Positions 4,320 to 48,900 of a DNA stretch of 64,000 nt are shown one piece after another. The translations under genes were made by a program, and so were the position numbers. How positions within the stretch are numbered: the stretch's first letter is position 1; each line of letters opens with the position of its first letter. Origin of the DNA: Croceivirga radicis (lineage in GTDB: Bacteria; Bacteroidota; Bacteroidia; Flavobacteriales; Flavobacteriaceae); NCBI RefSeq assembly GCF_002072105.2, contig NZ_MTBC01000001.1:124001-188000 (forward strand), in the 5' to 3' direction. The notes below the pieces were generated by a model. It was not told where the DNA came from and did not search any database. It saw only the letters and a program-made list of their open reading frames with translations.

Positions 4320-5342
4320 TTAGCTTACTTGTCTACCCGCTCTCTCTAAAAGTTCTTTAGTTGCTATAATCCCGGCTTCTTCTCCTAGTTCATTTCCTTC
4401 ATATTCCACACCAATAAATCCGGTATAACCCGCATCTTTTACAATTTGAAGCATTTTTTCATAATCTGTTCCGGTATCGTTACCCTGAGCATCAAAATCA
4501 TGAGATTTAGCACTTACTGCTTTTGCAAAAGGCATTAACTCTTTTACCCCTTTGTAACGGTCGTATTCTTCTGCACAACCGGCACTCCAATCTTTAGGAT
4601 CCTTTCTTATGATACAGAAGTTTCCAAAATCTGGTAAGGTACCGCAATTGTCCATATTAACTTTAGTCATTACTTCTGCCAACAACGCCCCATTAGAAGA
4701 GAGGCCACCATGGTTTTCTACAATAATATTTATGCCCTTTACCTTTCCATAAGTACTTAAACCCGTTAGCCCGGCAACAGCAGCTGGCACCCATTCCTTA
4801 GGGTCATTACTACCTGCTAGATTTACCCTAATACTATGGCAGCCCATTGCTTTGGCCGCATCTACCCATTTGTAATGGTTTTCTATGGCTGCTTTACGTT
4901 CCGCTTCATCTGCGGTAGCCAAATTTCCTTGACCATCTACCATAATCAACAAATTCTTTAGCCCATACTTTTCTGCCTCTGCATTAGATTTATCGACAAA
5001 ATTTTTCATTGCAGCATCCGAAAAATTTTCCTTCTCCAATTCTGGGTAATAAAGACCACTCACATATTCTAATCCTGTAAAACCCCAGTTTTTTGCTTTT
5101 TCCGCAAAACTATATGGATCAAGACCGTCTTGTCTTATCATTCTATTGATTGACCATTGTGCCAAAGACAACTCAAAAAACAAGGCATCACTTTCAACCT
5201 CATCAATGGTTTCTTCTACCATTGTTTCGTCCATTTCATTTTCCTTCTTTGTCTGTTTGCAAGCATAAGTTCCTAATAGTGCAACTCCTAGTCCTACTTT
5301 TGCGGAATTACCTATAAAAATTCGTCTTTTCATGGTGGTCAT
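4320..5342 (-). CDS. exported sugar isomerase/epimerase-like TIM-barrel lipoprotein
   Basis: A 340-residue protein. Its N-terminus MKRRIFIGNS with a hydrophobic stretch ending in GTYACKQ combines a Tat-like twin-Arg start and a lipobox-like Cys, so it is probably exported and lipid-anchored. An acidic linker follows. The barrel shows the hydroxypyruvate-isomerase-like pattern: VENHGG, LPDFGNF, AKSHDFD and GVEYEG hold the metal ligands. It is the first gene of the minus-strand arm, facing the GMC oxidoreductase across a 136-bp divergent promoter region. The track start carries an extra MTT; the twin-Arg start three codons later is equally possible. Substrate unknown, presumably a periplasmic keto-sugar or sugar acid. 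Confidence 0.8.
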   Translation of the reverse strand: MTTMKRRIFIGNSAKVGLGVALLGTYACKQTKKENEMDETMVEETIDEVESDALFFELSLAQWSINRMIRQDGLDPYSFAEKAKNWGFTGLEYVSGLYYPELEKENFSDAAMKNFVDKSNAEAEKYGLKNLLIMVDGQGNLATADEAERKAAIENHYKWVDAAKAMGCHSIRVNLAGSNDPKEWVPAAVAGLTGLSTYGKVKGINIIVENHGGLSSNGALLAEVMTKVNMDNCGTLPDFGNFCIIRKDPKDWSAGCAEEYDRYKGVKELMPFAKAVSAKSHDFDAQGNDTGTDYEKMLQIVKDAGYTGFIGVEYEGNELGEEAGIIATKELLERAGRQVS

Positions 5343-9463: not shown

Positions 9464-11434
9464 ATGAGGCAACCTACTACCAAACGCTTACCATTTTATC
9501 CAAAATACTTTGTTGTTCTTCAACTTGCAATGCTATTTGTTCTATTTGTTGGTAAGGCACAAGATGGTTTAAAACTAGAGAAACCCTTTGAAGTTACCCT
9601 AAATCAACTTTTAAAAGAAAAACCACTTAACTATGAGGATATAGATGGTTATTTCTATAAATACAAAAAAGACACGCTGTTAATTAAAAGCTTTCTAGAG
9701 CAGGCTATTAAAAAAAAATACCCGGCCGGACAGATTTATGCACTTAATATGATGGGTACTTATTTTAGAAATAAGTCTAACTACCCCAAAGCGGTGGAGG
9801 CCCATGAAGCAGCTCTTGAACTAGCCCAAAAAGTAGAAAATAAAGAGTTAGAGATTAGTAGCCTCAACATGCTTGGAGTTGTTTATAGAAGAACCGATGC
9901 GGTGAGGACCGCTCTAGACTACCATCAACAAGCATTAGAAAAAGCAGAAGCCGTAGCATCTAATTCCAAGGACGTAAAAAAAAGTATCAACATTGCTTTA
10001 AATTCTATTGGTAACATTTACCAAGCCCTAGGACAATATGATTTGGCCATTGGTAATTTTAAAAGGGCATTGGCTTCAGAAATTGAACTTGGCAACAATT
10101 TGGGCTTGGCTATAAACAACCAAAATATAGGAGACTGCCTAGAACAACAAGGCAAGCTAGATGAGGCTCTGGATTACTATAGAAAATCATTAGCCATTAA
10201 TGATGAAATGGATAATGAATACGGCAGGGTTATTTGCAAAAACAGCATTGCACAAATCTATTTAAAGCAGAATATGCCAAATGCAGCCTTGGTGCTATTG
10301 GAACAACTGGTAGAACCTATTTCTAACATTGGTGACAAATTTATATGGACCAGCGTATTGCACAATCTAGGTTGGGCACAAATGAATACAGGAGATTTAA
10401 CTGCTGCAGAAAAAAATATGCGCACCGGATTAAAAATGGCAAGAGACAATGACATTTTGGGACAAGTAATCTATGGCAACAAACTATTGTCCGATCTAGA
10501 AATCAAGAAAAACAATTATCAGCAAGCGTTGGTCTACTTTAAAGAAGCAGAGCGCTATGAAAACGAAATTAAAAGTGATCAGAACAACCGTTATATTAAC
10601 GATTTAATTCTACGGTACGAGGCAGAGAAGCAAACCACCGAAATAAAGGAATTGGCACAGAAAAACGAGTTGATCAACCTTAAATTAAGAAAACACCAAA
10701 CCACAATCCTAGTTAGTGCTTTGCTAACCGGTTTGGTAATTACCATTTTGTTCATCATGTATAGGCAACATCAATCCAATTACGAAAAAAGGGTAATAGG
10801 GTTGGAACAAAATATGTTACGTAGCCAAATGAACCCGCATTTCCTGTTCAACTCTTTAAACTCGATAAAGCTATACATCATCAATAACGATAAAAAGAAC
10901 GCCGTTCATTACTTAAATAAGTTCTCCAAGCTGGTAAGGCGTATTTTAGATGGATCTACCTTAAAAGAAACCACACTGGCAGAAGAACTAGAAACCGCAG
11001 AACTTTACTTGAACATTGAAAACATTCGATTTTCCAATACCATAGATTATAAAATAGAAATTACGGAAGGCCTAGATCCAGAGACTTTAAAATTACCGTC
11101 TTTAATACTTCAGCCTTTTTTAGAGAATGCCATATGGCATGGCCTAAGCTCTAAAGAAGGTGAAAAAAAATTACGGGTTACCATTACACCAAAAAACGAT
11201 TACCACATACATATTAATATTATTGACAATGGTGTAGGTAGGGCAACATCAGAAAAAATAAAGGAAAAACGTGTAATTAAAAGAAAATCTGTTGGTATAG
11301 ATATCACAAAAGAGCGCTTGGCCAACTTCGCAAAAGACTACCAGAATGATTACAGCGTGGATATTATTGACCTTTTTGACGAAAAAGGAAAACCCAACGG
11401 CACCAAAGTAGTTATAGAAATACCTACTATTTAA
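9464..11434 (+). CDS. TPR-containing LytS-type sensor histidine kinase
   Basis: A 656-residue inner-membrane kinase. An N-terminal signal-like segment (about residues 10-30, ending FVGKAQ) is followed by an exported sensor of about six tetratricopeptide repeats (residues about 60-370; ALNMMGTYFRNKSNYPKAVE, ALNSIGNIYQALGQYDLAI). After a coiled coil comes one membrane helix (about 412-435). The cytoplasmic His_kinase domain has RSQMNPHFLFNSLNSI with the phospho-accepting His. An ATPase domain follows with LQPFLENAIWHG and DNGVG. This is the standard bacteroidete partner of LytTR regulators. Its end overlaps the convergent DUF3109 gene by 8 bp. Confidence 0.93.
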   Translation: MRQPTTKRLPFYPKYFVVLQLAMLFVLFVGKAQDGLKLEKPFEVTLNQLLKEKPLNYEDIDGYFYKYKKDTLLIKSFLEQAIKKKYPAGQIYALNMMGTYFRNKSNYPKAVEAHEAALELAQKVENKELEISSLNMLGVVYRRTDAVRTALDYHQQALEKAEAVASNSKDVKKSINIALNSIGNIYQALGQYDLAIGNFKRALASEIELGNNLGLAINNQNIGDCLEQQGKLDEALDYYRKSLAINDEMDNEYGRVICKNSIAQIYLKQNMPNAALVLLEQLVEPISNIGDKFIWTSVLHNLGWAQMNTGDLTAAEKNMRTGLKMARDNDILGQVIYGNKLLSDLEIKKNNYQQALVYFKEAERYENEIKSDQNNRYINDLILRYEAEKQTTEIKELAQKNELINLKLRKHQTTILVSALLTGLVITILFIMYRQHQSNYEKRVIGLEQNMLRSQMNPHFLFNSLNSIKLYIINNDKKNAVHYLNKFSKLVRRILDGSTLKETTLAEELETAELYLNIENIRFSNTIDYKIEITEGLDPETLKLPSLILQPFLENAIWHGLSSKEGEKKLRVTITPKNDYHIHINIIDNGVGRATSEKIKEKRVIKRKSVGIDITKERLANFAKDYQNDYSVDIIDLFDEKGKPNGTKVVIEIPTI

Positions 11435-11996
11435 GGTGCTGTGCAGCTACTTCTTCCAATTCTTGGTACCAATCCGCACCAAACTTTCTTACCAAAGCCT
11501 CTTTCACAAATTTGTAGATAGGCACTTTAAGTTCTGCCCCCAGCGTACAAGCATCATCACAAATAGCCCATTTATGGTAATTTACAGCCGTAAAAGCTGA
11601 ATATTCCCTAGTCCTAACCGGATAGAGATGACAAGAGACCGGTTTTTTCCAATCGGTTAAACCATCATTATATGCTTCTTCTAACGCACATTTGGCCATA
11701 CCATCCTTGGCAAAAACAACGTAGGCACACTCTTCATGGTTTACCAAAGGTGTTTCCCATTCTCCATCCCAACCCTTTACGAAGGTACCCTGCTCCTCTA
11801 TTGCTTTAATACCTTCTTTTCTTAGATAGGGCTTAACGGTCTTATACACCTTTTCTAAAATAGGTAGTTCTTGGTCTGTTAAGGGTGCACCAGACTCACC
11901 CTCCACACAACAAGCCCCTTTGCATGCGTTTAAATTGCACACAAAATCCTTTTCTATAATTTCCTCAGAGATGAGTGTTTTACCAATTTGAAACAT
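11427..11996 (-). CDS. DUF3109 family Cys-rich protein
   Basis: A 189-residue cytoplasmic protein with clustered cysteines that could bind zinc or an Fe-S cluster: FVCNLNACKGACCVEGE near residue 21-33, ECAYVVF, MAKCALEEAY, VSCHLYPVR and AICDDACTLG. The pattern is that of DUF3109, a family widespread in Bacteroidota with no established function, related to YkgJ-type CxxxCxxCC proteins. The gene converges with and overlaps the TPR kinase gene by 8 bp and is divergent from marC, each with its own promoter element. Confidence 0.85.
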   Translation of the reverse strand: MFQIGKTLISEEIIEKDFVCNLNACKGACCVEGESGAPLTDQELPILEKVYKTVKPYLRKEGIKAIEEQGTFVKGWDGEWETPLVNHEECAYVVFAKDGMAKCALEEAYNDGLTDWKKPVSCHLYPVRTREYSAFTAVNYHKWAICDDACTLGAELKVPIYKFVKEALVRKFGADWYQELEEVAAQHLK

Positions 11997-36239: not shown

Positions 36240-39200
36240 TCAGAACGTCAACGCACCAATACCTGCATCCCATAATAATTTATTATAGGAAGGTATTGCG
36301 TTTTGTTCCAAATCTGTTGCTGTTGCCTTAAGGGTTTGCCACTGTTTATCCAATTCCGCTTTACGTTCCTTGTTAGCGGTATTTACCCTCGGCAAATCAC
36401 TATTGGTTTGGTTAATTAGAAACAGATACTCTGCAGTAAACTTATTGGGGAAATTCTCCACGTCATCATAAGCTTTCGATTTACGTTGTACCATCTCCCC
36501 ATCCCAAGATTTCAATTTTCCTAACAACTCCTTTCCCTTCTTCTTTAATTCCTCGTCCTTAATTTTAGATAAAATACCATTCAGTTTATTCTGGATTTTA
36601 TACAATCTATTCACCTGTTGATGCATGGCGGTTAATTCCTGCTCCATAGCACTCATGAAAGCATCAAACTCCTGATAGTCTTCTGCAGAAACATTGTAGG
36701 TGGGTATCTTTTTAATTACCGCCTTGGTCGTAACCGTTTTTCCATCTGCTTTAAGGGTGATGTTATAAGTACCTGGAATCACTTTATGTCCCTTAAAACC
36801 TGCTTCAATATACACGCCCGGCACACCTGGCATAATGGGATGCTTCATATCCCACACAAAACGATTTAACCCTTCTTTTTTAGGCAATCTAGGTGCTGGC
36901 GGGGCACTTCCTCCGTTGTGGGGCACATAGGTTGAATCTTTCTCCGAAGTAAAGGAACGAATCAATTTGTTGTTATTGTCTGTTATTTCTAAAGTGATGT
37001 TTGCAGCATCATCCAACTTTGGCAACTCGTAATACAACACCACTCCATTTGCTGGATTTATACCTTCAAAAGGATGCGTACCTGTAAACTTATCTGTATT
37101 TCCACTCATGGGGCTGCCCCACGACCCTAAGTAAGCATCGTCTGGCTGATAGATTTTTACTTCTCTACTACTCGATTTCTCATAAGTAGTAAGCACATCC
37201 AAATCGTCTAAAATCCAAAAAGACCTACCGGAAGTTGCCACGATTAAATCACGCTCGTGCACTTTTAAATCCAAAATAGGCGTGGTGGGTAAATTCAATT
37301 GAAAAGGTTCCCAATTAGCACCGCCGTTGAAGGAAATGTACATGCCCAGCTCGGTACCCGCATACAGCAAATCTTTACGTTTGGTGTCTTCCCGAACTAC
37401 ACGGGTAAAGGCTCCGTAGGGAATTCCCGTGTTGATTTTCTCCCAAGATGTGCCGTAATTGGTGCTTTTGTAAATGGCAGGTGTATAATCGTTAAACTTA
37501 TATTTAGTGCTAGCTATATAAATGGTAGCAGGGTCATGTGGCGACACTTCAATGGCGTTAATTAACGCTTCTCCTATTCCTTTGGGTGTAATATTTTCCC
37601 AAGATTCACCTCCGTTTTTAGTAATGTGTACCAAGCCATCATCACTCCCCGTTATAAGCACCCCTTTTTGGTGTGGCGATTCTATCATATACGCCAAAGT
37701 GCCATAATTTTCAGCCCCTACTGCTTCATTGGTGTACGGCCCACCACCATTGCCTTGCTTTTCGTCAATATCACGCGTTAAATCAGGAGAGATTTCTTCC
37801 CAGTTCTTGCCCATATCGCGTGTACGCAGTACCAACTGTGCACCATGGTAATAGGTGCCTGGTTCGTGTTTGGAACCTATTATAGGCGCGTTCCAATTGT
37901 AAAGGTATTTCATGTTACGGGCTTCCCGACCTAGATACTGAATGGGTGCTGCCATAATCTGGGTAGAAGCCTTGCTTTCCATATCTAACACTTCAATAGT
38001 TCCCAAATAACTTCCCCCTAAAACATATTTAGGATTGTCCGGGTCAAACGCCAAAAAGGCACTTTCACCACCCGCTGCATACGTCCAATCTTGTTCACCA
38101 ATGCTAGAACGTCCCAAAGACCTGCTGGCAATACGTACCGAGGTATTGTCTTGCTGCCCTCCATAAATATTGTATGGGAAAAGATTGTCTACACTGATGC
38201 GATAAAACTGAGCCGTTGGCATATTATCTTGTGTAGACCAAGTTTTGGCAAAATCAAAACTTACGGCAGCACCACCATCATTGGCAATAACCATGTTATT
38301 GGAATTGGCGGGATTAATCCACAAATCATGATAATCGCCATGTGTTCCCGATAAGGTTTCCCATGTTTTACCACCATCTGTAGAACGTAAGGCTGGAGCA
38401 CTTAGTACATACACCGTATCAGCATCGTTTGGGTCTGCAAAAACTTCAATATAATACCAGGCGCGTTGTACCAACCGATTATCACCACTCACCATTTTCC
38501 AAGAAGCACCAGCATCATTCGATACAAACAATCCACCCTTATCTTGATTAGAATCGCTCTCAATCAACGCATAAACTCTATTGGAATCGGCACCACTAAC
38601 CGCAATGGCCATTTTACCTTTTTCTTCTGGTAAACCTTTATGAATTTTGGTCCAAGTTTCCCCAGCATCCGTAGACTTGTACAAACCACTACCTACACCA
38701 CCACTTACTACCATATTTGGCTTACGTTGGTGCTCCCACATAGCGGCATACATAATTTCTGGGTAGTTGGCATCTATAGACAACTCTGATGCTCCGGTAA
38801 GTTCATTGACGAACAAAGTGTTTTTCCATGTTTTGCCGCCGTCTACCGATTTATAAATACCACGTTCTGGATTCCCTTGGTGTAAAGCCCCTTGTGCGGC
38901 AACATAAACAATATCTGGATTTGTAGGATGAATAACGATGCGTGATATATGTTGGGTTTTGGTAAGTCCAAGATGTGTCCAGGTTTTACCGGCATCGGTA
39001 GATTTGTAAACCCCATCACCGTAAGAAGTCATTACCCCTCGCGGCGCATGTTCTCCCATTCCGCAATAAATTATGTTGGGATTGGAAGGTGCCACGGCAA
39101 CTGCACCTACAGAGCCAGTTTTAAAATAACCATCAGAAACATTCTCCCAGCGTTGGCCAGCAGTTGTAGTTTTCCACAAACCGCCACCCGTAGTACCCAT

Positions 39201-39371
39201 GTAATAAGTCAGGGGGTCACCTATAACACCCGTTGCGGTTACGGAACGCCCACCTCTAAACGGGCCTATGTTTCGGTATTTAAGTGGCTTAAAATAATCG
39301 TTAGCAGATTGGGCAATAGTAACTGTAATTGCCATGTATGCTAGTAGTAAAACAGCTTTTTTAATATTCAC
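36240..39371 (-). CDS. VPS10/sortilin-like BNR-repeat exported glycosidase-type protein
   Basis: A 1043-residue secreted protein with a signal peptide (first about 20 residues, ending TIAQSA). The N-terminal 700 residues form two beta-propellers with many Asp-box-like repeats ([45 protein letters not shown]). [13 protein letters not shown] near residue 36 is the usual opening of this group. The C-terminal third has an immunoglobulin-like segment and a helical end. Proteins of this class are annotated as sortilin-like glycosyl hydrolases, but no activity is established. It is a tandem paralogue of the gene at 39623-42763. Confidence 0.88.
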
Positions 39372-39429
39372 TTTGTCTAAAATTATCTTACTAATTAATT
39401 GTTTTTCCAGTTAATACATGCCTGATTCA

Positions 39430-39474
39430 ACAGACCCCTCCGCCCTGTGGGCACCTCCCCTAACTTAGGGGAGG
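39430..39474. repeat. flavobacterial intergenic repeat, copy 1
   Basis: ACAGACCCCTCCGCCCTG leads to the hairpin CCTCCCCTAAC/TTAGGGGAGG. A related copy is at 47159-47203. A second short element, AAGGAGGGGTGGCGCTAGCC, follows at about 39538-39558. The 251-bp gap between the two VPS10-like genes contains nothing else. Confidence 0.6.
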
Positions 39475-39622
39475 ACCTTGAACTAAATGCCTATATCTTT
39501 TAAGTACCAAGTCATCATAAACTTGTTCCCTCCTTCTTCAAGGAGGGGTGGCGCTAGCCGGGGTAAGTATGTACTTTCTTCCTGTTTGGTACTGCACTTA
39601 ACTGAAAGGATAAATCTTACGA

Positions 39623-42600
39623 CTATTCCTCAATGGATAAATAATTTAAACCAAGTTGATTGAACTCCGCATTAAAAGCCTTCATTTCTTCATCTACCAA
39701 GGTATCAAAAGCCTTTAATTGGGCTTCAATTTTAGCTGTCATCTCGTTTTTTACCGCTATATCTTGTGCCGTTGGTGGAAAATCATCTATACTGACAAGG
39801 CTGTTCAGGTGACCAAGCTTGTTGGTCAGGCGAATTGGGAAGTTCAACGGATCTTGATTACTTCTATTCTTGGTTTGGTATAGGGTTTTCTCTATTTCAC
39901 CAAACTTCTCCTTCATACCCTTAGCCTTCTCTACCAAGCTTTTTGTGGCCGAATTATCGTTGTACTGCTTTACAAAGGCATCTAGCTTGGTATTTATAGC
40001 GCGAATCTTTTTTATAGATTGATGCGCTCTATCTATAGTCTCATTTATGCTCGTAATAAAATCATATTGCTTTTGCATATCAGCAACAGAAACCTCTGCT
40101 CTAGGGTCCCGTAAAATTTTAAAGTTTTCCGTTTGTGTGTTACCATTTACACTAAGACTTACTTTATACTCCCCTGGAACTGCTTTTGCTCCTTCTAATG
40201 AAGCCCACCAAAGAATCATACCTTTTAATTTTTCCGCACCTTTACCGCGGGTATCCCAAACATGGGTATTGCCACCGGCTTTAAGGTCTTTTAAGGCCTG
40301 TTTTTTATCTTTTGCCATGCTGCTGTACATTGCCAAAGTATCTCCAGACTTACTTAGATACGTTAGTTGAACGGTATCTTTTTCTTTATCAAAAGCTTTT
40401 AAATAAAAATGAGTAACTACTCCATTGGGGTGGTTTTGTCCTTGCAACAAACTTGGCTTGGAGGCCGCCCTACCTTTGGTACGGTAACTATCTTTTGGCG
40501 CAAAAAGTTTGGCCGCAACAGTATTATCAGCACTTGCTAACTGGTGTAGTACAGTTAAATCGTCTATTATCCAAAGGCTACGACCTTGTGTGGCCACAAT
40601 TAGATTGTTGTCTTTGATAGCCAAATCCGTGATAGGCACAATAGGCAAATTCAACTGAAAAGGTTTCCAAGAAGCACCATCATTAAAAGAAATGTACATG
40701 CCTGTTTCTGTACCGGCATACAATAAACCCTTTTGTTTTGGGTCCTCACGAACCACTCTAGTAAAATGCTCATCTTCTATACCGTTCGTTATTTTTGTCC
40801 AGGTAGCCCCATAATCCGTGGTTTTATACAAATAGGGTGCAAAATCGCCCAACTTATAGCGTGTACCTGCCACGTAGCACGTACCTTCATCAAAAGCGGA
40901 AGGTTCTATGCTATTGATCATCATCCACTCTGGCATCCCTGTTGGAGTTACATTTTTCCATGTTTTACCACCATCTTGGGTTACATGTACCAAACCATCA
41001 TCACTACCCACCCAAAGGAGACCTTCTTTTAACGGACTCTCATTTGCCGCAAAAATGGTACAATAATACTCCACACTGGTATTGTCTTGGGTAATGGGAC
41101 CTCCACTAGAACCTAATTTGGTGGGATCATTACGTGTTAAATCATCACTCAACAATTCCCAACTTTGTCCTTCATTGGTACTCAGATGTACGTGGTTAGA
41201 AAATGTATATAATTTTTTAGGGTCGTGCTTGCTAAAAATGATAGGAAAATTCCATTGAAAGCGATACTTCATCGCCTCTGCACCCGCACCCATAGGGTTA
41301 TCTGGCCACACGTTAATACCTCTAGTAGTACCCTTATCGTGATTAACTCGAGTTAAAAATCCGTCATAACTACCCCCATACACAATATCGTTGTTCAAAG
41401 GATCTACCGCTATATGGGCACTTTCGCCACCTGCCGTTGGCTCCCAATCTGCTTCGCCAATGTAGCTACCAGCTGAGCGGTGTTTAATACGCAGCGTACT
41501 GTTATCTTGCTGCGCCACATAAATACGATATGGGAAAGCATTGTCTGTAGTAACTCTATAAAATTGTGCTGTTGGTTGGTTGTAGTAAGTACTCCACGTT
41601 TCACCACCATCATAACTAACTTGAGCTCCACCATCATCCCCAATAATCATTCGTTTAGAATCTTCTGGAGAAATCCATAAATCATGATGGTCTCCGTGAG
41701 GCGCATTAAAGGTTTTAAATGATTTACCGCCATCGGTAGACTTGTGGTATCTTACGTTAAGCACATACACCACATCTTCATCTTCCGTATCTGCATACAC
41801 ACGGGTGTAATACCAGGCACGTTGTCGCAGTTTACGCTCACTATTTACTTGGTTCCAAGTTTTACCACCATCGTCTGAACGGTATAAACCACCTTTATCC
41901 TTATTCTCTACAATGGCCCAGACACGCTCACTATTTTTTGGCGATACGGTAACCCCTATAATGCCTAAAGTATCCGTAGGGAAACCTTCATTCTTGGAAA
42001 TTTCTGTCCATGTTTCGCCACTGTCCGTACTTTTCCACAAGGCAGAGCCCTCGCCACCACTACTTAAGGAATAAGGTGTGCGCTGCGCCCGCCATGTAGA
42101 CGCATATAAAATTCTAGGGTTGTTGGGGTCAAAAGTTAAATCTACCGCACCTGCTTGGTCATTCACAAACAAAACCTGTTTCCAATTTTTACCACCATCG
42201 GTACTTTTGTAAACACCACGTTCTTTGGTGGGTTTATAAATATTACCCAACACTGCAGCATATACGGTATTGTAATCCGTAGGATGCACCCGTAACCTTG
42301 GTACATGCCTGCTTTTCTCTAAACCGGCTTTTTCCCAAGTTTTACCGCCGTTTTCTGTTTTCCAAATACCGTAACCACTAGATACATTACCACGTAGGGT
42401 TTTTTCCCCACCTCCAACATAAATAACGTTAGGGTCGCTTTTGGCAACCTCAACAGCGCCAATACTACCGCCAAAATAGCCGTCAGATATATTTTTCCAA
42501 GACCTACCCCCATCTAGGGTTTTCCAAACGCCACCACCGGTAGCACCAAAATAATAAAGGTTAGGTTCTCCGGGCACACCCGTTACCGCGGCAGAACGCC

Positions 42601-42763
42601 CACCACGAAAAGGACCTACCAGGCGGTATTCCAAACTAGAATACAGCTCTTCTTTAGGTGCTGTGTCTTGATTTTGTTTTTTTCTGCGTTGCGCTTGGGC
42701 TGTAGGAATAGCCAAAGCAAGGGCACATAGTAGAATGCCCATTTTTTGAAGCGTGGTTCTCAT
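39623..42763 (-). CDS. VPS10/sortilin-like BNR-repeat exported protein, paralogue
   Basis: A 1046-residue secreted protein, colinear with the neighbour at 36240-39371. It has a signal peptide (ALALAIPTAQAQRRKK), [17 protein letters not shown] near residue 52, and the same series of Asp-box repeats ([58 protein letters not shown]). The C-terminal helical region also matches. Conserved order and length point to an old tandem duplication. The two proteins may act on the same polymer or form a pair; the activity is not established. A divergent exported oxidoreductase starts 106 bp away. Confidence 0.88.
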   Translation of the reverse strand: MRTTLQKMGILLCALALAIPTAQAQRRKKQNQDTAPKEELYSSLEYRLVGPFRGGRSAAVTGVPGEPNLYYFGATGGGVWKTLDGGRSWKNISDGYFGGSIGAVEVAKSDPNVIYVGGGEKTLRGNVSSGYGIWKTENGGKTWEKAGLEKSRHVPRLRVHPTDYNTVYAAVLGNIYKPTKERGVYKSTDGGKNWKQVLFVNDQAGAVDLTFDPNNPRILYASTWRAQRTPYSLSSGGEGSALWKSTDSGETWTEISKNEGFPTDTLGIIGVTVSPKNSERVWAIVENKDKGGLYRSDDGGKTWNQVNSERKLRQRAWYYTRVYADTEDEDVVYVLNVRYHKSTDGGKSFKTFNAPHGDHHDLWISPEDSKRMIIGDDGGAQVSYDGGETWSTYYNQPTAQFYRVTTDNAFPYRIYVAQQDNSTLRIKHRSAGSYIGEADWEPTAGGESAHIAVDPLNNDIVYGGSYDGFLTRVNHDKGTTRGINVWPDNPMGAGAEAMKYRFQWNFPIIFSKHDPKKLYTFSNHVHLSTNEGQSWELLSDDLTRNDPTKLGSSGGPITQDNTSVEYYCTIFAANESPLKEGLLWVGSDDGLVHVTQDGGKTWKNVTPTGMPEWMMINSIEPSAFDEGTCYVAGTRYKLGDFAPYLYKTTDYGATWTKITNGIEDEHFTRVVREDPKQKGLLYAGTETGMYISFNDGASWKPFQLNLPIVPITDLAIKDNNLIVATQGRSLWIIDDLTVLHQLASADNTVAAKLFAPKDSYRTKGRAASKPSLLQGQNHPNGVVTHFYLKAFDKEKDTVQLTYLSKSGDTLAMYSSMAKDKKQALKDLKAGGNTHVWDTRGKGAEKLKGMILWWASLEGAKAVPGEYKVSLSVNGNTQTENFKILRDPRAEVSVADMQKQYDFITSINETIDRAHQSIKKIRAINTKLDAFVKQYNDNSATKSLVEKAKGMKEKFGEIEKTLYQTKNRSNQDPLNFPIRLTNKLGHLNSLVSIDDFPPTAQDIAVKNEMTAKIEAQLKAFDTLVDEEMKAFNAEFNQLGLNYLSIEE

Positions 42764-42869: not shown

Positions 42870-44291
42870 ATGAATAAACGAGAATTTATTAAAACCACCG
42901 GAGCTGGCGCGCTGGGTGTTGCCCTTGCACCTTCTTTATTACATGCACAACAGCCAAACAAAAAGCTTAGAACTGCACATATTGGCGTGGGCAATATGGG
43001 TTGGGAAGATTTAATTGCCATTTCTTCACATAAAAACGTAGAAGTGGTTGCCCTTTGTGATGTAGATGCACTTTACTTGTCCAAAGCCCACAAAATGCAC
43101 AGAAAGGCTAAAATCTTTTTTGATTATAGGGTAATGTTGGAACAAATGAAAGACGAGATTGATGCTGTTATCATTTCAACACCAGACCATACCCATGCTC
43201 CTGCATCCTTAATGGCCATGGAGATGGACAAGGCCGTTTATTGCCAAAAACCATTGACACACTATGTAGACGAGTCTAGAAAAATGATGCAATTGGCCAA
43301 TGATAAAAACCTCATTACCCAGATGGGTATACAGGTACATTCTTTTTACGATTATAAATTAGCCACATTATTAATTCAGTCTGGGATTATAGGCAAGGTA
43401 CACACGGTGCATGCTTGGAGCCCAAAAAATTGGGGATTTGATGGCGAAGCACCAAGTGGGGAAGATGCCGTACCCGACCAATTGGATTGGAATTTGTGGC
43501 TTGGCACTTCTCCTTACCGTGCTTTTAAAGATAACCTGTACCATCCTGGTAATTGGCGAAAAGTTATGGACTATGGCTGTGGCACTTTGGGCGATATGGG
43601 CGTTCATATTTTTGACACCCCATACAACGCCTTACAATTAGACGTTCCTATGACCATTAAAAACGAATGCAGGCCCAGTACCGGATTTGGTTTCCCAGAA
43701 AATAATAGGGTCACCTATGAGTTTCCTGGCACGCCATACACCGATAAAACCCTGAAATGGATTTGGTATGACGGACCCGGTATGCCAACACTTCATGAAG
43801 ATTTAGTACTGCCTGGCATGGCCGATAAAAAAAATGGAACCCCTAAAACCAGTATGAAGGATAAAATGTCCTTGGATGCCAAAGAAGCTGCATTAAACGA
43901 ATTGCCAGAACAAGGTGCCATGTTTGTTGGCAGCAAAGGGCGGTTATTGCTACCCCATTTTATGCAATTACCTAGAAAAATAGTTCGTGGGAAATATGTG
44001 GATATTACAAAGGAGATTGAAGCATTGGACCAGCAATACCAATTGGGAAGCCCTGTACGGAATTATGAAACCCAAGGCCCTAAACATTACCATCAGTTTG
44101 TAGATGCTTGTTTGGGAACAGATACGTGCTCGGCGCCATTTTCTTATGCCGGACGATTAACAGAAACCATACTTCTAGGGGTAATTGCTGGCCGATTTTC
44201 AAACCAAACCTTACATTGGGACGCAAAAGCAGCACGTTTTAAGGAAGAAGAAGCAAACATGTATTTGTCCGGTGAATATCGAAGTTTTTAA
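42870..44291 (+). CDS. Tat-exported Gfo/Idh/MocA family oxidoreductase
   Basis: A 473-residue protein with a twin-basic Tat-like signal (MNKREFIKTTGAGALGVALA, then SLLHAQ). IGVGNMGWED is the Rossmann loop and ISTPDHTHA a typical strand. The catalytic-lysine motif is CQKPLTHY (Lys127), with Gln in place of the usual Glu of EKP. GDMGVH gives the Asp/His pair. It is a paralogue of the protein at 26885-28309 with the same LDWNLWLG segment. It is divergent from the VPS10-like genes, which suggests periplasmic carbohydrate work. Confidence 0.88.
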   Translation: MNKREFIKTTGAGALGVALAPSLLHAQQPNKKLRTAHIGVGNMGWEDLIAISSHKNVEVVALCDVDALYLSKAHKMHRKAKIFFDYRVMLEQMKDEIDAVIISTPDHTHAPASLMAMEMDKAVYCQKPLTHYVDESRKMMQLANDKNLITQMGIQVHSFYDYKLATLLIQSGIIGKVHTVHAWSPKNWGFDGEAPSGEDAVPDQLDWNLWLGTSPYRAFKDNLYHPGNWRKVMDYGCGTLGDMGVHIFDTPYNALQLDVPMTIKNECRPSTGFGFPENNRVTYEFPGTPYTDKTLKWIWYDGPGMPTLHEDLVLPGMADKKNGTPKTSMKDKMSLDAKEAALNELPEQGAMFVGSKGRLLLPHFMQLPRKIVRGKYVDITKEIEALDQQYQLGSPVRNYETQGPKHYHQFVDACLGTDTCSAPFSYAGRLTETILLGVIAGRFSNQTLHWDAKAARFKEEEANMYLSGEYRSF

Positions 44292-44302
44292 TTAGCATTA
44301 GA

Positions 44303-44349
44303 AAATCATAGTTATACCTAAGTTATATTTAACTATATAGCTATGATTT
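44303..44349. terminator. long hairpin after exported oxidoreductase
   Basis: AAATCATAG and CTATGATTT (44303-44311, 44341-44349) pair exactly, and five further inner pairs extend the stem. It lies 11 bp after the stop. The T-run is short (ATTTC), so termination is likely but not certain. Confidence 0.55.
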
Positions 44350-44360
44350 CACAGAAATAA

Positions 44361-44392
44361 CCTCGCCGGCGCTAGTTTGTAACTAGTGCCGT
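44361..44392 (+). repeat. islet-flanking repeat, left copy
   Basis: Core GCGCTAGTTTGTAACTAGTGC, itself an imperfect palindrome, preceded by CCTCG. The copy at 46961-46992 matches at 29 of 32 positions in the same orientation, exactly 2600 bp away. The pair brackets the peptide cluster and the recombinase stump. Confidence 0.7.
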
Positions 44393-44443
44393 ACCGAGTA
44401 AGAAGTATAAAGTACTGAGTAAAAAGTATTGTCTGTATTCGTC

Positions 44444-44464
44444 ATGCTGAACTTGTTTCAGCAT
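44444..44464. repeat. 21-nt palindromic repeat, first of three copies
   Basis: ATGCTGAACTTG followed by TTTCAGCAT is a near-palindrome. Inverted relatives are at about 47073-47096 and 47250-47270. These are typical dispersed flavobacterial repeats. Confidence 0.55.
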
Positions 44465-44610
44465 CTTAATGTTGTAGTAATCAGAATTACTATTTCATAA
44501 ATTGCTATTGCTGTCCAGTGTTTTGCATGCCTCAATGTAAAAAATTGTTACGAAGTAACTAAGCTGTTTCGTTTTATATTACCTCTGATTACTTACTTTT
44601 ATGTTTTCTG

Positions 44611-44638
44611 CCGCAGCAGCACAGCTACTGCGGAGCGG
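44611..44638. repeat. 28-nt inverted repeat, left copy
   Basis: Contains CCGCAGCAGC and GCTACTGCGG, an imperfect hairpin. The inverted copy at 46913-46940 matches at 27 of 28 positions. It lies inside the repeat bracket of the islet. Confidence 0.65.
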
Positions 44639-44699
44639 GGGGGCTTTGGTTTTAATAATGTTAGACGGTTATTTAAATTTTAACATATTTAGAGGTTTA

Positions 44700-44753
44700 A
44701 CTCTCAAAAAATGAGAGTGCTGTTTAGCATCTTTACCATGTAATCAAAACAGC
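44700..44753 (+). promoter_or_regulatory. two successive hairpins in the leader of the peptide cluster
   Basis: ACTCTCA/TGAGAGT (44700-44706 with 44712-44718) is followed directly by GCTGTTT/AAACAGC (44719-44725 with 44747-44753). They lie 59-112 bp before the first peptide ATG. No clear TAnnTTTG element is visible between them and the gene, so they may lie in a transcribed leader or mark an upstream end. The stretch 44393-44699 has only dispersed repeats. Confidence 0.35.
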
Positions 44754-44811
44754 GCGCAACAGAAATTTTGGTTTTGGTTTAATAGTAAATTGTTTAATTA
44801 AAATTTTTAAA

Positions 44812-44961
44812 ATGGAACAAATAGAATTTTTAAAGTCGGATGAGTTAATCGAAATTAATGGAGGGCTTTTAAATCCGGCACCAGGGGCAAATCTAACAGG
44901 TATTGTAAAATTGGGGGTTGCTTTTGTAAAAGGAATTTTTTCTGGAACAGATATTTTTTAA
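44812..44961 (+). CDS. double-glycine leader peptide 1 (bacteriocin-like or signal peptide)
   Basis: A 49-codon ORF below usual gene-finding cut-offs. The leader ends in LKSDELIEINGG (GG at residues 17-18), the consensus for C39-peptidase-cleaved leaders: hydrophobic residues at -4, -7 and -12 relative to the cut and Glu at -8. The predicted mature peptide has 31 residues, begins LLNPAPGANL and is hydrophobic, with glycines at regular spacing (GIVKLGVAFVKG) as in helix-packing class II bacteriocins. It is the first of three related genes in a row. Bacteriocin versus pheromone cannot be decided. Confidence 0.75.
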   Translation: MEQIEFLKSDELIEINGGLLNPAPGANLTGIVKLGVAFVKGIFSGTDIF

Positions 44962-44975
44962 AAGAAGAGACAAAA

Positions 44976-45116
44976 ATGGAGAATTTATCACAACAAGAAT
45001 TAATAGAAATCCAAGGTGGTAACGATATAGAAGTTTTTTTCTTCTTTATGGGATATACCGCTGCCAGAAATTTTGACTATGCGGTTGGTATAATTGATGG
45101 ATTTGTAAGAGGATAA
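44976..45116 (+). CDS. double-glycine leader peptide 2
   Basis: A 46-codon ORF starting 14 bp after peptide 1. The leader MENLSQQELIEIQGG (GG at 14-15) is clearly homologous to those of peptides 1 and 3. The predicted mature peptide of 31 residues begins NDIEVFFFFMGY and contains Ala/Gly-rich helical sequence with a C-terminal FVRG. The mature part is unlike those of its neighbours, so leaders are conserved while cargo diverges, as in bacteriocin and pheromone arrays. Confidence 0.75.
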   Translation: MENLSQQELIEIQGGNDIEVFFFFMGYTAARNFDYAVGIIDGFVRG

Positions 45117-45140
45117 TAGATAAACTTTAAAAAGAAAATT

Positions 45141-45293
45141 ATGAATTTGACAGATTTAACACAGAGTGAGTTGATAAACATCGAGGGTGGCCTAGATGAA
45201 GATTATAATGCTGGTTACGCCGTAGGGGCATGGCTAAGAAAGGCAGTTGACGCTTTTGGGGACGTGGTTGATGCTTTCAGTCCTTTTTCTTGA
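45141..45293 (+). CDS. double-glycine leader peptide 3
   Basis: A 50-codon ORF, 24 bp after peptide 2. The leader MNLTDLTQSELINIEGG (GG at 16-17) matches the shared pattern L-x-x-E-L-I-x-I-x-G-G. The predicted mature peptide of 33 residues begins LDEDYNAGYAVG and forms an amphipathic, acidic helix (WLRKAVDAFGDVVDAF). A good intrinsic terminator follows 24 bp after the stop. Together the three ORFs look like one transcript. Confidence 0.75.
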   Translation: MNLTDLTQSELINIEGGLDEDYNAGYAVGAWLRKAVDAFGDVVDAFSPFS

Positions 45294-45317
45294 AATTTAT
45301 TTAAATTTAAACGAATA

Positions 45318-45346
45318 ATGGAACACCTTTCCGGGTGTTCCATTTT
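45318..45346 (+). terminator. intrinsic terminator after the peptide genes
   Basis: ATGGAACACC (45318-45327) pairs perfectly with GGTGTTCCAT (45334-45343) around TTTCCG, followed by TTT. It separates the peptide genes from the protease gene 32 bp further on, so the latter may be expressed by readthrough or its own promoter. Confidence 0.75.
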
Positions 45347-45377
45347 CGTGTTTAATATAAAAATTAGAATATTCTAA

Positions 45378-46076
45378 ATGTTGCAATTAGTAAGGAATAT
45401 ATACGGAGGCACTATAAAACCAAAAAATATAGAAACGGCAATTTATAGTAAACCTGGCAATAAAATTATTCTACTACTAAAGATATTTTTTGTCAAAATT
45501 ATTTTATCATATAGCTTAGTATTCTTCCTAAGTTTTTTTAAAAATTTTGAAAACAATACTGTACAAAGTATTGAAGAAGATTTTGGTCTTCAGTTGTCAT
45601 TTCTAATAGTTGTTATCATTGTTCCAATTTATGAAGAAATCATTTTCAGACTACCTTTAGTATATAGGCCAATTAATTTAGCGCTATCTGTTTTTGGTTT
45701 ATGCTACTTTTTTTTGTCCTCTTTCATTTTTGGCTCTAATTTTTTGACCTTAGACATTAACTTGTTTTATAAACTAGTATTTTCTCTTGTAGTTGCTTTA
45801 TCTGTGTATTTTGGCGGAAAAAGATTTTCCAGATTGGGCTCTTTTTGGAATGGTAATTTTCAAGTAATATATTATTCCTCAATTCTTTTATTTGGATTTG
45901 CCCATATCTTAAATTTTAAAATCAATTTTGAGAATTATTATTTGTTGCCATTAGTAATTTCGCCTCATTTACTTGCTGGCATAATTCTTAACTATATAAG
46001 AATAAAATTGGGTTTTCTGTTTTGTTGTTTATTTCACATTTTTAATAATTTATTTGTTTTTATTCTCACTATCTAG
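45378..46076 (+). CDS. CPBP family intramembrane metalloprotease
   Basis: A 232-residue polytopic protein with six or more helices. The CPBP/Rce1 active-site motifs are present in order: EEIIFR (E86, E87, R91), FGFAH (H176) and FHIFNN (H220). Bacterial members are often encoded beside class II bacteriocins, where they give self-immunity or help maturation. That fits its place directly after three double-glycine leader peptides. Very A/T-rich, like the peptide genes. No export ATPase or C39 peptidase is encoded in the window, so that function would have to come from elsewhere. Confidence 0.85.
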   Translation: MLQLVRNIYGGTIKPKNIETAIYSKPGNKIILLLKIFFVKIILSYSLVFFLSFFKNFENNTVQSIEEDFGLQLSFLIVVIIVPIYEEIIFRLPLVYRPINLALSVFGLCYFFLSSFIFGSNFLTLDINLFYKLVFSLVVALSVYFGGKRFSRLGSFWNGNFQVIYYSSILLFGFAHILNFKINFENYYLLPLVISPHLLAGIILNYIRIKLGFLFCCLFHIFNNLFVFILTI

Positions 46077-46265
46077 ATTTTAAGTCGAGCAATTTTTCCT
46101 TAATAAGACCAACTAAGAATTTGAAAATAAAATGATTATGGAACAAATTTATCATTAGTCCTCTTTTAAAAACTCTGCATTGATCTTTCTTATGCTTTTT
46201 GGTCCATAAATATTTCATCAGCTATTCTCTGAGCTACAAAAAATTTGAAATTGGAGGAGGTAAAT

Positions 46266-46456
46266 TCATTTTGCCTCTAAAACTTTAAAAGGAATTAGCA
46301 TTCTTTTACCAACTAAATAGGCATTTTGAAACGGACCTCTCTCAATTCTTCCAAAATCGGAAGCTGAAATTTCTTTAGAATTTACTTAGGTTCCAACACC
46401 ACAAAAGGTATAATCATTTCTTCAAGGCTTACCCCGCCATGTTGATAAAGTCCTCC
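46266..46456 (-). pseudogene. gene debris with PglZ-like C-terminal end
   Basis: The minus strand encodes GGLYQHGGVSLEEMIIPF...LEPK and a stop at 46382. This resembles the extreme C-terminus of PglZ/alkaline-phosphatase-type domains (as in PorX and defence proteins). It is cut at its upstream side by a repeat (CCCTCCAAAGGAGGG at about 46460-46474). Overlapping it downstream is a second start-less frame, DFGRIERGPFQNAYLVGKR to a stop at 46266, of unknown family. I see no intact gene in 46077-46517, so these are probably relics. Confidence 0.4.
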
Positions 46457-46517
46457 CTCAATCCCTCCAAAGGAGGGAAGCCAAAAATTTCTAAGCGAAT
46501 CATTATTTGGGTAGAAC

Positions 46518-46915
46518 TTAAGAATTGCTAGTTTTTTTTCTAAGCAGACTCACGTCAGCACTTATTTTATTGTCCAAAACTCTTGCATAAATCTGTGTCG
46601 TGGCCAATTTGGTATGGCCTAATAATTTTGATACGGTTTCAATTGGCACTCCATTGGATAGCGTAACAGTTGTTGCAAAGGTATGTCTGGCCATATGAAA
46701 AGTGAGATTCTTTTTAATCCCTACAGCATCAGCAATTTCCTTCAAGTACAAATTGATTTTTTCATTTGTCAGTACTGGGAGTAATGTTTCAGAAATAATT
46801 GTAATTGGATTTTCGACATACTTTTCAATAATGGATTCCGCTTTGTCCAATAAAGGGATTTTAACAGGTGTTTTGGTTTTTTGCCTTTTGGTATAAATCC
46901 ATCTACTGCCACCCG
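46518..46915 (-). pseudogene. C-terminal fragment of a tyrosine recombinase (phage-type integrase)
   Basis: Only about 130 residues remain. HMARHTFATT carries the His and Arg (HxxR) of the active site and LLGHTKLATTQIYARV the second His and the nucleophile Tyr. The first catalytic Arg and the whole N-terminal half are missing. The open frame continues upstream of the first Met (WIYTKRQKTKTPVKIPLLD) until about 46912, where it stops abruptly at the 28-nt inverted repeat. This is a truncated bacteroidete mobile-element integrase, not a functional gene. Confidence 0.85.
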
Positions 46916-46940
46916 CTCCGCAGTAGCTGAGCTGCTGCGG
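46913..46940. repeat. 28-nt inverted repeat, right copy
   Basis: Inverse of 44611-44638 with one mismatch (CCGCTCCGCAGTAGC at its left end). It forms the truncation point of the recombinase fragment. Confidence 0.65.
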
Positions 46941-46960
46941 TAAAAAATCCGCCGCTAGCC

Positions 46961-46992
46961 CCTCGATGGCGCTAGTTTGTAGCTAGTGCCGT
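46961..46992 (+). repeat. islet-flanking repeat, right copy
   Basis: Direct copy of 44361-44392 (29 of 32 identical), core GCGCTAGTTTGTAGCTAGTGC. The copies bracket 2.57 kb of accessory DNA. Confidence 0.7.
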
Positions 46993-47019
46993 GTTTGAGT
47001 AAGCAATAAAATATTAGAG

Positions 47020-47046
47020 ACCACAGTTTAATACCGTGGTTTTTTA
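47020..47046 (+). terminator. hairpin with T-run beyond the islet
   Basis: ACCAC pairs with GTGGT, followed by six T. No complete plus-strand gene precedes it directly. Confidence 0.5.
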
Positions 47047-47072
47047 TTAGGCAGTACATATATACTTAAAAA

Positions 47073-47305
47073 GATGTTGTAACAAGTTCAACATAATATA
47101 GAAAAACGACACTTAATACTTGTTACTTGTTACTTTTAACCTAGTACTTCAATAAAAAACAGACCCCTCAGTCCTGCAGACAGCTCCCCTTACTAAGGGG
47201 AGCAACTACTATTATTCAAAGAAGATAATCTTATAACTTTAAAAACCAGATACTGAAACAAGTTCAGCATAACGTAGAAAAACCACACTTAATACTTTTT
47301 ACTTT
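47073..47305. repeat. non-coding dispersed-repeat region
   Basis: Two direct copies of a unit, about 47073-47125 and 47250-47300, share AAGTTCARCATAA and GAAAAAC-ACACTTAATAC. Between them is copy 2 of the CAGACCCCTC repeat with its CTCCCCTTA/TAAGGGGAG hairpin (47159-47203). The gap 46993-47499 contains no gene. Confidence 0.6.
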
Positions 47306-47452
47306 CAAAGAGATTTCTCAGTCGTAGCCATGCTACTCCTATCGAAATGACGATTATAAGCTGATTCACCCTTCTTTCTTACTTTTTACCGTTAGCCTTG
47401 TACTTTAAAACAGCTTTTCTTATCAAAATGAAAATCGGGTAATACCAATAAA

Positions 47453-47476
47453 AAAAGAGGGCTAATAGCCCTCTTT
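47453..47476 (-). terminator. terminator of the aldehyde dehydrogenase gene
   Basis: AAAAGAGGGC pairs with GCCCTCTTTT around TAATA. A/T runs on both sides allow termination in either direction; it follows the minus-strand stop by 24 bp. Confidence 0.8.
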
Positions 47477-47499
47477 TCACCATCACAATACATATCCTT

Positions 47500-48900
47500 C
47501 TACTCAGAAAGGATAACCGATTTTACGTTTACAAATTCGCGCATACCAAAACCGCCGTGTTCTCTTCCGTAACCCGAATTTTTAATTCCACCAAATGGCA
47601 TTTCTGGATTTGCCAATCCAAAGGAATTGATAAACACCATTCCGGTATCAAAATAATTTTGCGCCAATTCTATTGCTTTTTCTTTGTCTTTGGTGAAGAT
47701 TCCCCCACCTAACCCAAACTGACTATCATTAGCTATGCGCAAGGCATCTTCTGTATCTTCTGCCTTAATTAGTGAAGCTACAGGGCCAAACAATTCGTCA
47801 TCAAACGCAGGCATTCCTGGCTCTAGATTTTCTAAGACTGTAGCGGGATAGTAGTATCCATCCGTTTGTGGCATTTGTCCACCGCATAATACATCGGCTC
47901 CTTTTTCCACACTCTCTATTACTTGTTGGTGTAATTCTTCTCTTAAGTCTTTACGGGCCATTGGGCCCAATTCAGTTTCCTCCATGTTTGGGTCGCCCAT
48001 TTTTAACGCCTTCATTTTGCTGACAAACGCTTTTTTAAATTCGTCATAAACGGCATCTACCACAATAAAACGCTTAGCCGCGATGCAGGTTTCCCCGTTA
48101 TTGTAGATTCTACCCTTTACACAAGCTTCGGCAGCAGCTTCTACATCCGCATCTGCCAAAACCAAGTACGCATCATTACTACCCAGCTCCATTACTGTTT
48201 TCTTCAACACTTTGGCTGCCTTTGCCGCTATGATTCTACCTGCACTTGAGCTACCCGTTAAGGTAACACCTTGTACCAAGTTGTTATTGATGATAGCATC
48301 GGACTGGTCATGATTTATAATTAGGGCTTGAAAAACGTGCTCTGGCAATCCTGCCTCATTAAAAATTTTCTCTAACAACTTACCTGTTCCGGTAACATTG
48401 CTGGCATGCTTTAATAGTACCGTATTCCCTGCCATTAGATTAACAATGGCATAACGGATTACTTGATAAGACGGGTAATTCCACGGCTGTATACCGTAGA
48501 TTACGCCCATTGGAGAATAGGTGATTATGCCTTCGCCCCCATTCATCAGTTCTCTTTTTTCTGATGCTAGCTGCTCTGGTGCTTTTTTTACCGTGTAGTC
48601 ACAAATTGCAGCGCATAACTCCACTTCGTGCTTACTTTGAGATAAAAGTTTGCCCATTTCGTCCGTCATTAACTGTGCAAGCTCATCGGTATGTTCCAAA
48701 AGCTTTTTACCAATATTCTTGATAATTTCTCCTCGCTCCTCTAACGATTTGTGTCGCCATGAGGTAAACGCTTTATGACTATTGCGCACGGCATTGGCCA
48801 CCTCAACATCCGTCATTTGTGGATAGCTGCTTAGCGGTTTACCTGTTGCTGGGTTTGTAGTTTCTATTTGTTGTGTTTCTATTGTTATCGTCTCCATCAT
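47500..48900 (-). CDS. NAD(P)-dependent succinate-semialdehyde-type aldehyde dehydrogenase
   Basis: A 466-residue cytoplasmic enzyme of the ALDH superfamily. The opening ETTNPATGKPL is typical of succinate-semialdehyde dehydrogenases. QPWNYPSYQVIRY is the NAD-site entry, GSSSAGRIIA the cofactor loop, MELGSNDAYLV holds the catalytic Glu and NNGETCIAAKRF the catalytic Cys. It oxidises an aldehyde, probably succinate semialdehyde, to the acid. It lies 16 bp downstream of an SDR gene on the same strand, presumably in one operon. The start could be either of two adjacent Met codons. Confidence 0.9.
   Translation of the reverse strand: MMETITIETQQIETTNPATGKPLSSYPQMTDVEVANAVRNSHKAFTSWRHKSLEERGEIIKNIGKKLLEHTDELAQLMTDEMGKLLSQSKHEVELCAAICDYTVKKAPEQLASEKRELMNGGEGIITYSPMGVIYGIQPWNYPSYQVIRYAIVNLMAGNTVLLKHASNVTGTGKLLEKIFNEAGLPEHVFQALIINHDQSDAIINNNLVQGVTLTGSSSAGRIIAAKAAKVLKKTVMELGSNDAYLVLADADVEAAAEACVKGRIYNNGETCIAAKRFIVVDAVYDEFKKAFVSKMKALKMGDPNMEETELGPMARKDLREELHQQVIESVEKGADVLCGGQMPQTDGYYYPATVLENLEPGMPAFDDELFGPVASLIKAEDTEDALRIANDSQFGLGGGIFTKDKEKAIELAQNYFDTGMVFINSFGLANPEMPFGGIKNSGYGREHGGFGMREFVNVKSVILSE

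Follow-up and report, generated by a model that had tools for sequence, protein, structure and literature searches.

The central finding of this analysis is a short insert, within a stretch of DNA of 64,000 nucleotides (the window), that carries genes for three double-glycine (GG) leader peptides followed by a gene for a CPBP intramembrane protein. We read this insert, with confidence a little above even, as a class II-like bacteriocin-immunity module that has been stranded without its exporter. The evidence comes from the letters of the window, from the rest of the host genome (G000; 3.6 Mb, 20 contigs, 99.97% complete) and from a comparison set of 198 relatives, in which the genus comprises G000 and ten genus-mates. 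Features of the insert and its surroundings are collected in Table 1.

Table 1 Features of the insert and its edges, in window coordinates
Feature	Position	Strand	Details
Direct repeat, left copy	44361..44392	+	91% over 32 nt vs right copy
39-nt inverted repeat, left arm	44604..44642	.	Bounds insert
HTH-like gene (HTH103), 3'-end remnant	44639..44683	+	blastn L129 11900-12042; end coordinate inferred
Conserved inverted repeat ACTCTCA-5-TGAGAGT	44700..44718	+	Upstream of peptides
Conserved 5' element AATCAAAAC / AGCGCGCAA / CAG-5-TTG / GTTTTGGTT	44742..44779	+	Two-part stem with conserved bulge possible
GG-leader peptide 1	44812..44961	+	49 aa; leader 18 aa, mature part 31 aa
GG-leader peptide 2	44976..45116	+	46 aa; leader 15 aa, mature part 31 aa
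GG-leader peptide 3	45141..45293	+	50 aa; leader 17 aa, mature part 33 aa
Terminator-like hairpin	45317..45344	+	12 pairs; separates peptide 3 from CPBP
CPBP (Rce1-like) intramembrane protease, proposed immunity protein	45378..46076	+	232 aa, intact
porX-like gene, 3'-end remnant, copy 2	46262..46316	-	78% to G003 porX end
porX-like gene, 3'-end remnant, copy 1	46391..46447	-	75-86% to congener porX ends
Truncated tyrosine recombinase, catalytic C-terminal part alone	46518..46850	-	PF00589 56.8 bits; NF040815 74.7 bits
39-nt inverted repeat, right arm	46909..46947	.	Bounds insert
Direct repeat, right copy	46961..46992	+	91% over 32 nt vs left copy

Results

Three peptides with a common leader

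All three peptide ORFs are open and undamaged, and the coordinates and strand that a first-pass annotation had given for them, as ORFs of 49, 46 and 50 codons with a common leader, are confirmed. Its leader formula is right in the shared E-L-I-x-I-x-G-G and one residue short at the start, where three positions rather than two follow the first leucine; the leader common to the three peptides is L-x-x-x-E-L-I-x-I-x-G-G, which has the L(-12), E(-8), L(-7), I(-4) and GG of class II double-glycine leaders. When ATG-started ORFs of 25-110 aa were counted, this strict leader was found three times in the window, always at 44812-45293, and 60 dinucleotide-shuffled windows contained not one; for a looser version of the motif the shuffled windows gave a mean of 0.28 and a maximum of 2 (n=60). 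A 14-column leader model built from eight congener leaders, applied to 271 ORFs, places the window peptides at ranks 1-3 with scores of 21.2, 20.4 and 15.1, the next ORF reaching 5.6; congener peptides left out of the model score 10.7-24.4.

The mature parts of GG peptides diverge strongly between species. Cysteine is absent from all three mature parts in the window, and each contains GxxxG, which four of eight congener peptides lack. Against family models the window peptides stay below the cut-offs: with PF10439 (Bacteriocin_IIc), peptide 1 scores 20.3 bits (cut-off 27.1) and peptides 2 and 3 have no match; with TIGR03949 (class IIb), peptides 1 and 3 score 14.9 and 10.2 bits (cut-off 21.5) and peptide 2 has no match; and none of the three is among the TIGR04149 matches at E up to 1. 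The mature part of peptide 3 clearly resembles a peptide adjoining the exporter of G035 (L147 10836-11012; shuffle z 8.8; 47% over 36 aa, leader included). Peptides 1 and 2 each show one weak likeness, with a p of 0.005 among 48 comparisons, which is about the level of chance.

The CPBP gene

The protease gene had also been identified correctly. Its product passes PF02517 (32 bits, cut-off 22.4) and keeps the three motifs EExxxR, FxxxH and HxxxN as EEIIFR, FGFAH and HIFNN; it scores 40.6 vs 220 on NF052640. The terminator annotated before this gene corresponds to the hairpin in Table 1. In a CPBP tree of 39 rows, 36 of them different (G005a and two G046 rows stand twice) and with long branches, the CPBPs of GG-peptide loci cluster, requiring 5 changes vs a shuffled mean of 9.8, a contrast that the duplicate rows inflate. 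With CPBPs from G112, G026 and G001, all located away from GG peptides, the window CPBP forms a group (94/82). The one from G001 is broken by a stop, which shows that a CPBP standing alone need not be preserved.

A larger cassette in genus-mates

A CPBP search of the 198 relatives, a peptide profile and the pattern of the 5' element led to G005 and G008. The cassette of these genus-mates encodes HlyD, a 725-aa C39-ABC exporter, an HTH-like protein of ~103 aa, two GG peptides and CPBP, with one CPBP gene in G008 and two in G005. It adjoins a gene whose product is a PglZ-domain response regulator and which we call porX-like. Leader and GG are thus kept in relatives with CPBP, a form of conservation that the first-pass annotation had singled out for checking. 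Two family cut-offs are exceeded: that of TIGR01193 by the G005 exporter (545.3 > 523.85), and that of the class IIb model TIGR03949 by a peptide of G001 (25.3 > 21.5). The HTH-like protein falls short of PF08279 (22.8 bits, cut-off 25), and the G008 CPBP, with no Pfam match at E 0.01, owes its assignment to its motifs and to its similarity with other CPBPs. Extra copies of the porX-like 3' end were also noticed beside cassette remnants, at L134 10924-11705 (G003) and L129 11664-11742 (G002), which suggests that this end of the gene is a hotspot of recombination.

The state of the cassette varies across the genus. At the porX-like gene an intact exporter is present, accompanied by HlyD, in four of the 11 genomes (G001, G004, G005 and G008), with the element, GG peptides and exporter occurring together in G001 and G004 without a cassette CPBP. 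The G006 exporter is cut to a 225-aa frame; G002 still has the element, its GG peptides and a small ORF, along with an HTH-like gene that is broken; and a remnant of ~700 bp lies between two porX-end copies in G003. Neither element nor exporter was seen at the porX-like locus of G007. The porX-like gene of G000, G009 and G010 directly abuts a gene that is presumably TsaE-like.

CPBP is not a fixed partner of the cassette, as it is present at only four of 16 exporter loci (stretches of 7-18 kb, some ending at contig ends). In its stead, G001, G002 and G004 have a tiny ORF 3' of the peptides that is hydrophobic by eye. Leaderless small ORFs of this look lie 3' of GG peptides at L129 12442-12582, L131 1780-1920 and L133 5024-5134, a similar one lies in the G003 remnant (L134 about 11418-11547), and their ends resemble those of GG peptides ([LI]-G-[KR]-D). 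It is possible that such ORFs encode immunity proteins that mimic the toxin.

A conserved element upstream of the peptides

Sequence conservation with G005 extends for ~110 bp ahead of peptide 1 (blastn 82% over 133 bp). The inverted repeat in this region is kept in G005, G002 and G004 and is imperfect in G008 and G001. The 5' element downstream of it is almost restricted to this genus: a shorter core stands at the window or porX locus of six of the 11 genus genomes (G000, G001, G002, G004, G005 and G008; 23 loci scanned), and a wider contig scan returned six loci, in G001, G004, G005, G008, Ignavibacterium and Zhongshania. With no mismatch, the core TAATCAAAACAGCGCGC is found in three of 198 genomes, each time at a GG-peptide/CPBP locus; with two mismatches it is found in 51 of 198, mostly at other genomic places.

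The arms of the element allow 9-11 outer pairs in all six genomes around an invariant AGCGCGCA. One two-sided change, in which C-G replaces A-T, is seen in G002 and its near-copy G004; several pairs are G-T. Folded as a single sequence, the window element does no better than its shuffles (z 0.48), and the proposed stem is not what its minimum-energy fold shows. Rfam gave five matches at E up to 1 across 44200-47500, none at its gathering score; a known riboswitch or sRNA at the element was rejected, the best match (whalefall-1, 22.9 vs 37, at 46450-46481) being taken as chance. The element is possibly an RNA switch or an operator.

Cassette remnants at the edges of the insert

The HTH remnant on the left matches L129 (77%, E 5e-24) and also L131. 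The corresponding ORF ends at 11944 in L129, and the HTH-like gene precedes the peptides in relatives. Because scraps of the HTH-like and porX-like 3' ends form its edges, the insert most likely derives from a porX-type cassette, via movement within the genome or transfer. The first-pass idea of a 'split set of three cargoes' gives way to that of a dislodged piece of a larger cassette.

Around these scraps lie nested repeats, placed as if they were the bounds of a mobile unit. The inverted-repeat arms are 90% complementary and 2266 nt apart, and their core occurs twice in the window; the 24-nt core of the direct repeat has four matches within two mismatches in G000, the other two forming an inverted pair on contig C14. 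In the tyrosine recombinase region (46518-46912, minus strand), the part upstream of the C-terminal remainder is apparently frameshifted and truncated at the repeat arm. An oxidoreductase gene served as the landmark for an empty insert site; it is present in nine relatives, and in all six of those examined, none of nine queried window stretches from its downstream side was found within ~9-11 kb downstream of it. Elsewhere in the window (36240-42763, minus strand), two large adjoining proteins of 1043 and 1046 aa are alike by eye.

Exporters and a second locus in the host genome

The window contains no C39 domain, as had been annotated. Defined by at least 56% identity to the G005 exporter (E 1e-100; truncated G006 copy excluded, G092 partial), the cassette-type exporter subfamily is present in 16 of 198 relatives. 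It was not found in G000, where the sole match among the five of 40 candidates scored is 33% identical; a search of G000 for HTH103 at E 0.01 was likewise negative. The first-pass annotation had proposed that a shared exporter elsewhere in the genome might serve the peptides. A C39-type exporter does exist: an independent C39 search of G000, with all seven candidates scored, gave two matches, both on contig C16 (L033 5201-12010), which there encodes HlyD, a C39-ABC protein, a TlpA-like protein, a 62-aa Cys-rich GG peptide with six cysteines in its mature part and a 527-aa C39-domain protein. The name TlpA and the VKOR/DsbA look of the 527-aa protein are our presumptions from the sequence. Sharing itself fares poorly, as the C16 exporter belongs to another subfamily, at 33% identity to the cassette exporter, and its neighboring peptide has a different leader. 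The exporter scores 441.6 on TIGR01193 (cut-off 523.85) and does best on an NHLM model, passing no cut-off among the models listed; the Cys-rich peptide scores 5.7 on the leader model, vs 15.1-21.2 for the window peptides, and matches TIGR04149 weakly (18.2 vs 25). By these leader-model scores, the window leaders resemble the type that goes with the missing exporter.

Peptide and exporter are also linked across genomes. A profile of 11 genus peptides matches 17 of 198 genomes at E 0.01; with six genus genomes left out (five contributors to the profile and G004, a near-copy of one), a match is present in 9/12 genomes with the exporter subfamily vs 2/180 without it (Fisher p 1.5e-11, uncorrected for relatedness). 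The peptide is on the exporter's contig and within 7 kb in six of those nine genomes, and one of the two exporter-less matches, in G009, lies inside a 225-aa frame.

Contig C12 of G000 carries a second locus of this kind (L034 5042-6012), 420 bp after tRNA-Asp (4548-4622), in which two in-frame TAG codons break a GG peptide and an intact CPBP follows. The broken peptide is related to G008 peptide B (z 8.4), and the CPBP shares a clade (99/96) with its G008 and G046 counterparts and is 32% identical to the G008 protein. Loss of the toxin with retention of the CPBP fits, in this one case, the prediction of CPBP immunity.

Discussion

In our proposal, the window insert represents the cargo end of a bacteriocin cassette that is class II-like: its peptides have double-glycine leaders, lack cysteine and are probably of the multi-peptide kind. 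Congeners would produce such peptides under control of that 5' element, remove the leaders after GG and export the mature parts through the adjoining C39-ABC exporter with its HlyD partner; once outside, the peptides could act, perhaps jointly, on the membranes of close relatives, with the CPBP membrane protein shielding the producer. In G000, the piece that runs from the HTH-like 3' end to the porX-like 3' end lies at another place and lacks the exporter, HlyD and the HTH gene. As the ORFs are intact, the window module may still be expressed, and three intact peptides argue against a long-dead relic. Secretion of the peptides is probably lost or poor, and the part that is most likely still useful to G000 is CPBP-based immunity. 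Several observations count against this stranded-module reading: window peptides that score below the cut-offs of bacteriocin models, the absence of GxxxG from half of the eight congener peptides, the presence of CPBP at no more than four of 16 exporter loci, CPBPs that stand alone away from GG peptides, with the G001 copy itself broken, and the hairpin between CPBP and the peptides. The earlier call of a bacteriocin or peptide-signal locus is partly supported overall, with the relatives favoring the bacteriocin type and CPBP as a possible immunity factor.

The same genes would have a different meaning if the C16 exporter matured and exported the three peptides in trans, leaving the bacteriocin active. 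G000 does have a C39-ABC gene with adjoining HlyD, the peptide ORFs are open, and there is precedent in pneumococcus: intact blpAB is reported in only 23.5% of strains, ComAB exports BlpC, and little decay is seen in the bacteriocin genes (PMC4860687), and the BlpI cargo is exported by both ComAB and BlpAB (PMC7018657). Yet the distance of the C16 exporter from the cassette type and the different leader of its own peptide speak against trans export, as does the rejection of foreign GG leaders that has been reported for RtgAB vs ComAB/BlpAB (PMC7018657), and we regard an active bacteriocin as rather unlikely. Still less probable is that CPBP processes or regulates peptide production. The active-site motifs of the window CPBP are intact, and SilX, a CAAX protease of Streptococcus anginosus, is needed for production, with no sensitivity after its deletion (PMC9298176); but an intact CPBP beside the broken C12 peptide, together with solitary CPBPs in relatives, makes more sense under immunity than under maturation.

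Slightly further down in our estimation stands the possibility that the window peptides are not toxins but pheromones, secreted as signals. Firmicutes use GG peptides such as BlpC in this way (PMC4860687), and small HTH-like genes adjoin the exporter in relatives. However, inspection by eye of the larger ORFs in the genus cassettes showed no sensor kinase, and several peptides per locus with divergent cargo under a conserved element fit an arms race better. Chance ORFs adjoining an unrelated CPBP gene have a single point in their favor, the small size of the ORFs; the absence of the strict leader from the shuffled windows, the congener-trained leader model, the conserved element and the exporter linkage leave this explanation next to no credence. 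The stranded module is the reading that we retain.

More broadly, but more tentatively, the genus cassettes could stand for a bacteriocin family of marine flavobacteria that has yet to be described, in which two or three Cys-free peptides form the toxin and immunity comes from CPBP or from tiny membrane proteins, carried on exchangeable cassettes at the porX 3' end whose cargo is swapped under one 5' element and whose pieces can leave without the exporter; we would give this wider proposal distinctly less than an even chance. A literature search of titles and abstract openings found no description of the cassette, and the main text of a Flavobacteriaceae gene-cluster survey uses neither 'bacteriocin' nor 'double-glycine' (PMC10734526). 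If the proposal is true, cassette pieces leaving the site without the exporter would give rise to immune-only or exporter-borrowing strains. The C12 locus, with its decayed peptide beside an intact CPBP, offers a natural test case for CPBP immunity, and the conserved 5' element could serve as a handle for locating small genes that are easily missed.

Several known systems share parts of this plan. Bacteroidetocins are Bacteroidetes GG-leader bacteriocins with a C39-ABC exporter, but bacteroidetocin-like peptides are described with at least two cysteines, a gene for a transmembrane protein and mostly a thiol oxidoreductase gene (PMC6671954); the absence of cysteine from the three window mature peptides rules out membership. 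With the class IIb lactobin A/cerein 7B family (TIGR03949) there is common ground in that one congener peptide passes its model and the window peptides carry GxxxG, a motif that half of the congener peptides lack; the window peptides fall below its cut-off. SilX likewise is a CAAX/CPBP protease within a bacteriocin locus, whereas its probable role is reported to be processing of a signal peptide rather than immunity (PMC9298176). The stranded module resembles pneumococcal blp loci in which blpAB is broken. The blp locus encodes type IIb pneumocins together with immunity proteins of the CAAX-protease and small membrane kinds; here too there are several GG peptides with variable cargo, CAAX/CPBP genes counted as immunity genes, and a C39 exporter that is often broken beside peptides with little decay (PMC4860687). 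In contrast to blp, the window host is a Gram-negative flavobacterium in which no peptide-sensing kinase was noticed, the exporter is not found rather than broken, and the cargo lies at another genomic place. Our reading would extend the blp-like plan of variable GG peptides, CPBP immunity and an easily lost exporter to Gram-negative marine flavobacteria, and what is new is this plan in a marine flavobacterium, Cys-free unlike the bacteroidetocins, with a piece of cargo parted from its exporter.
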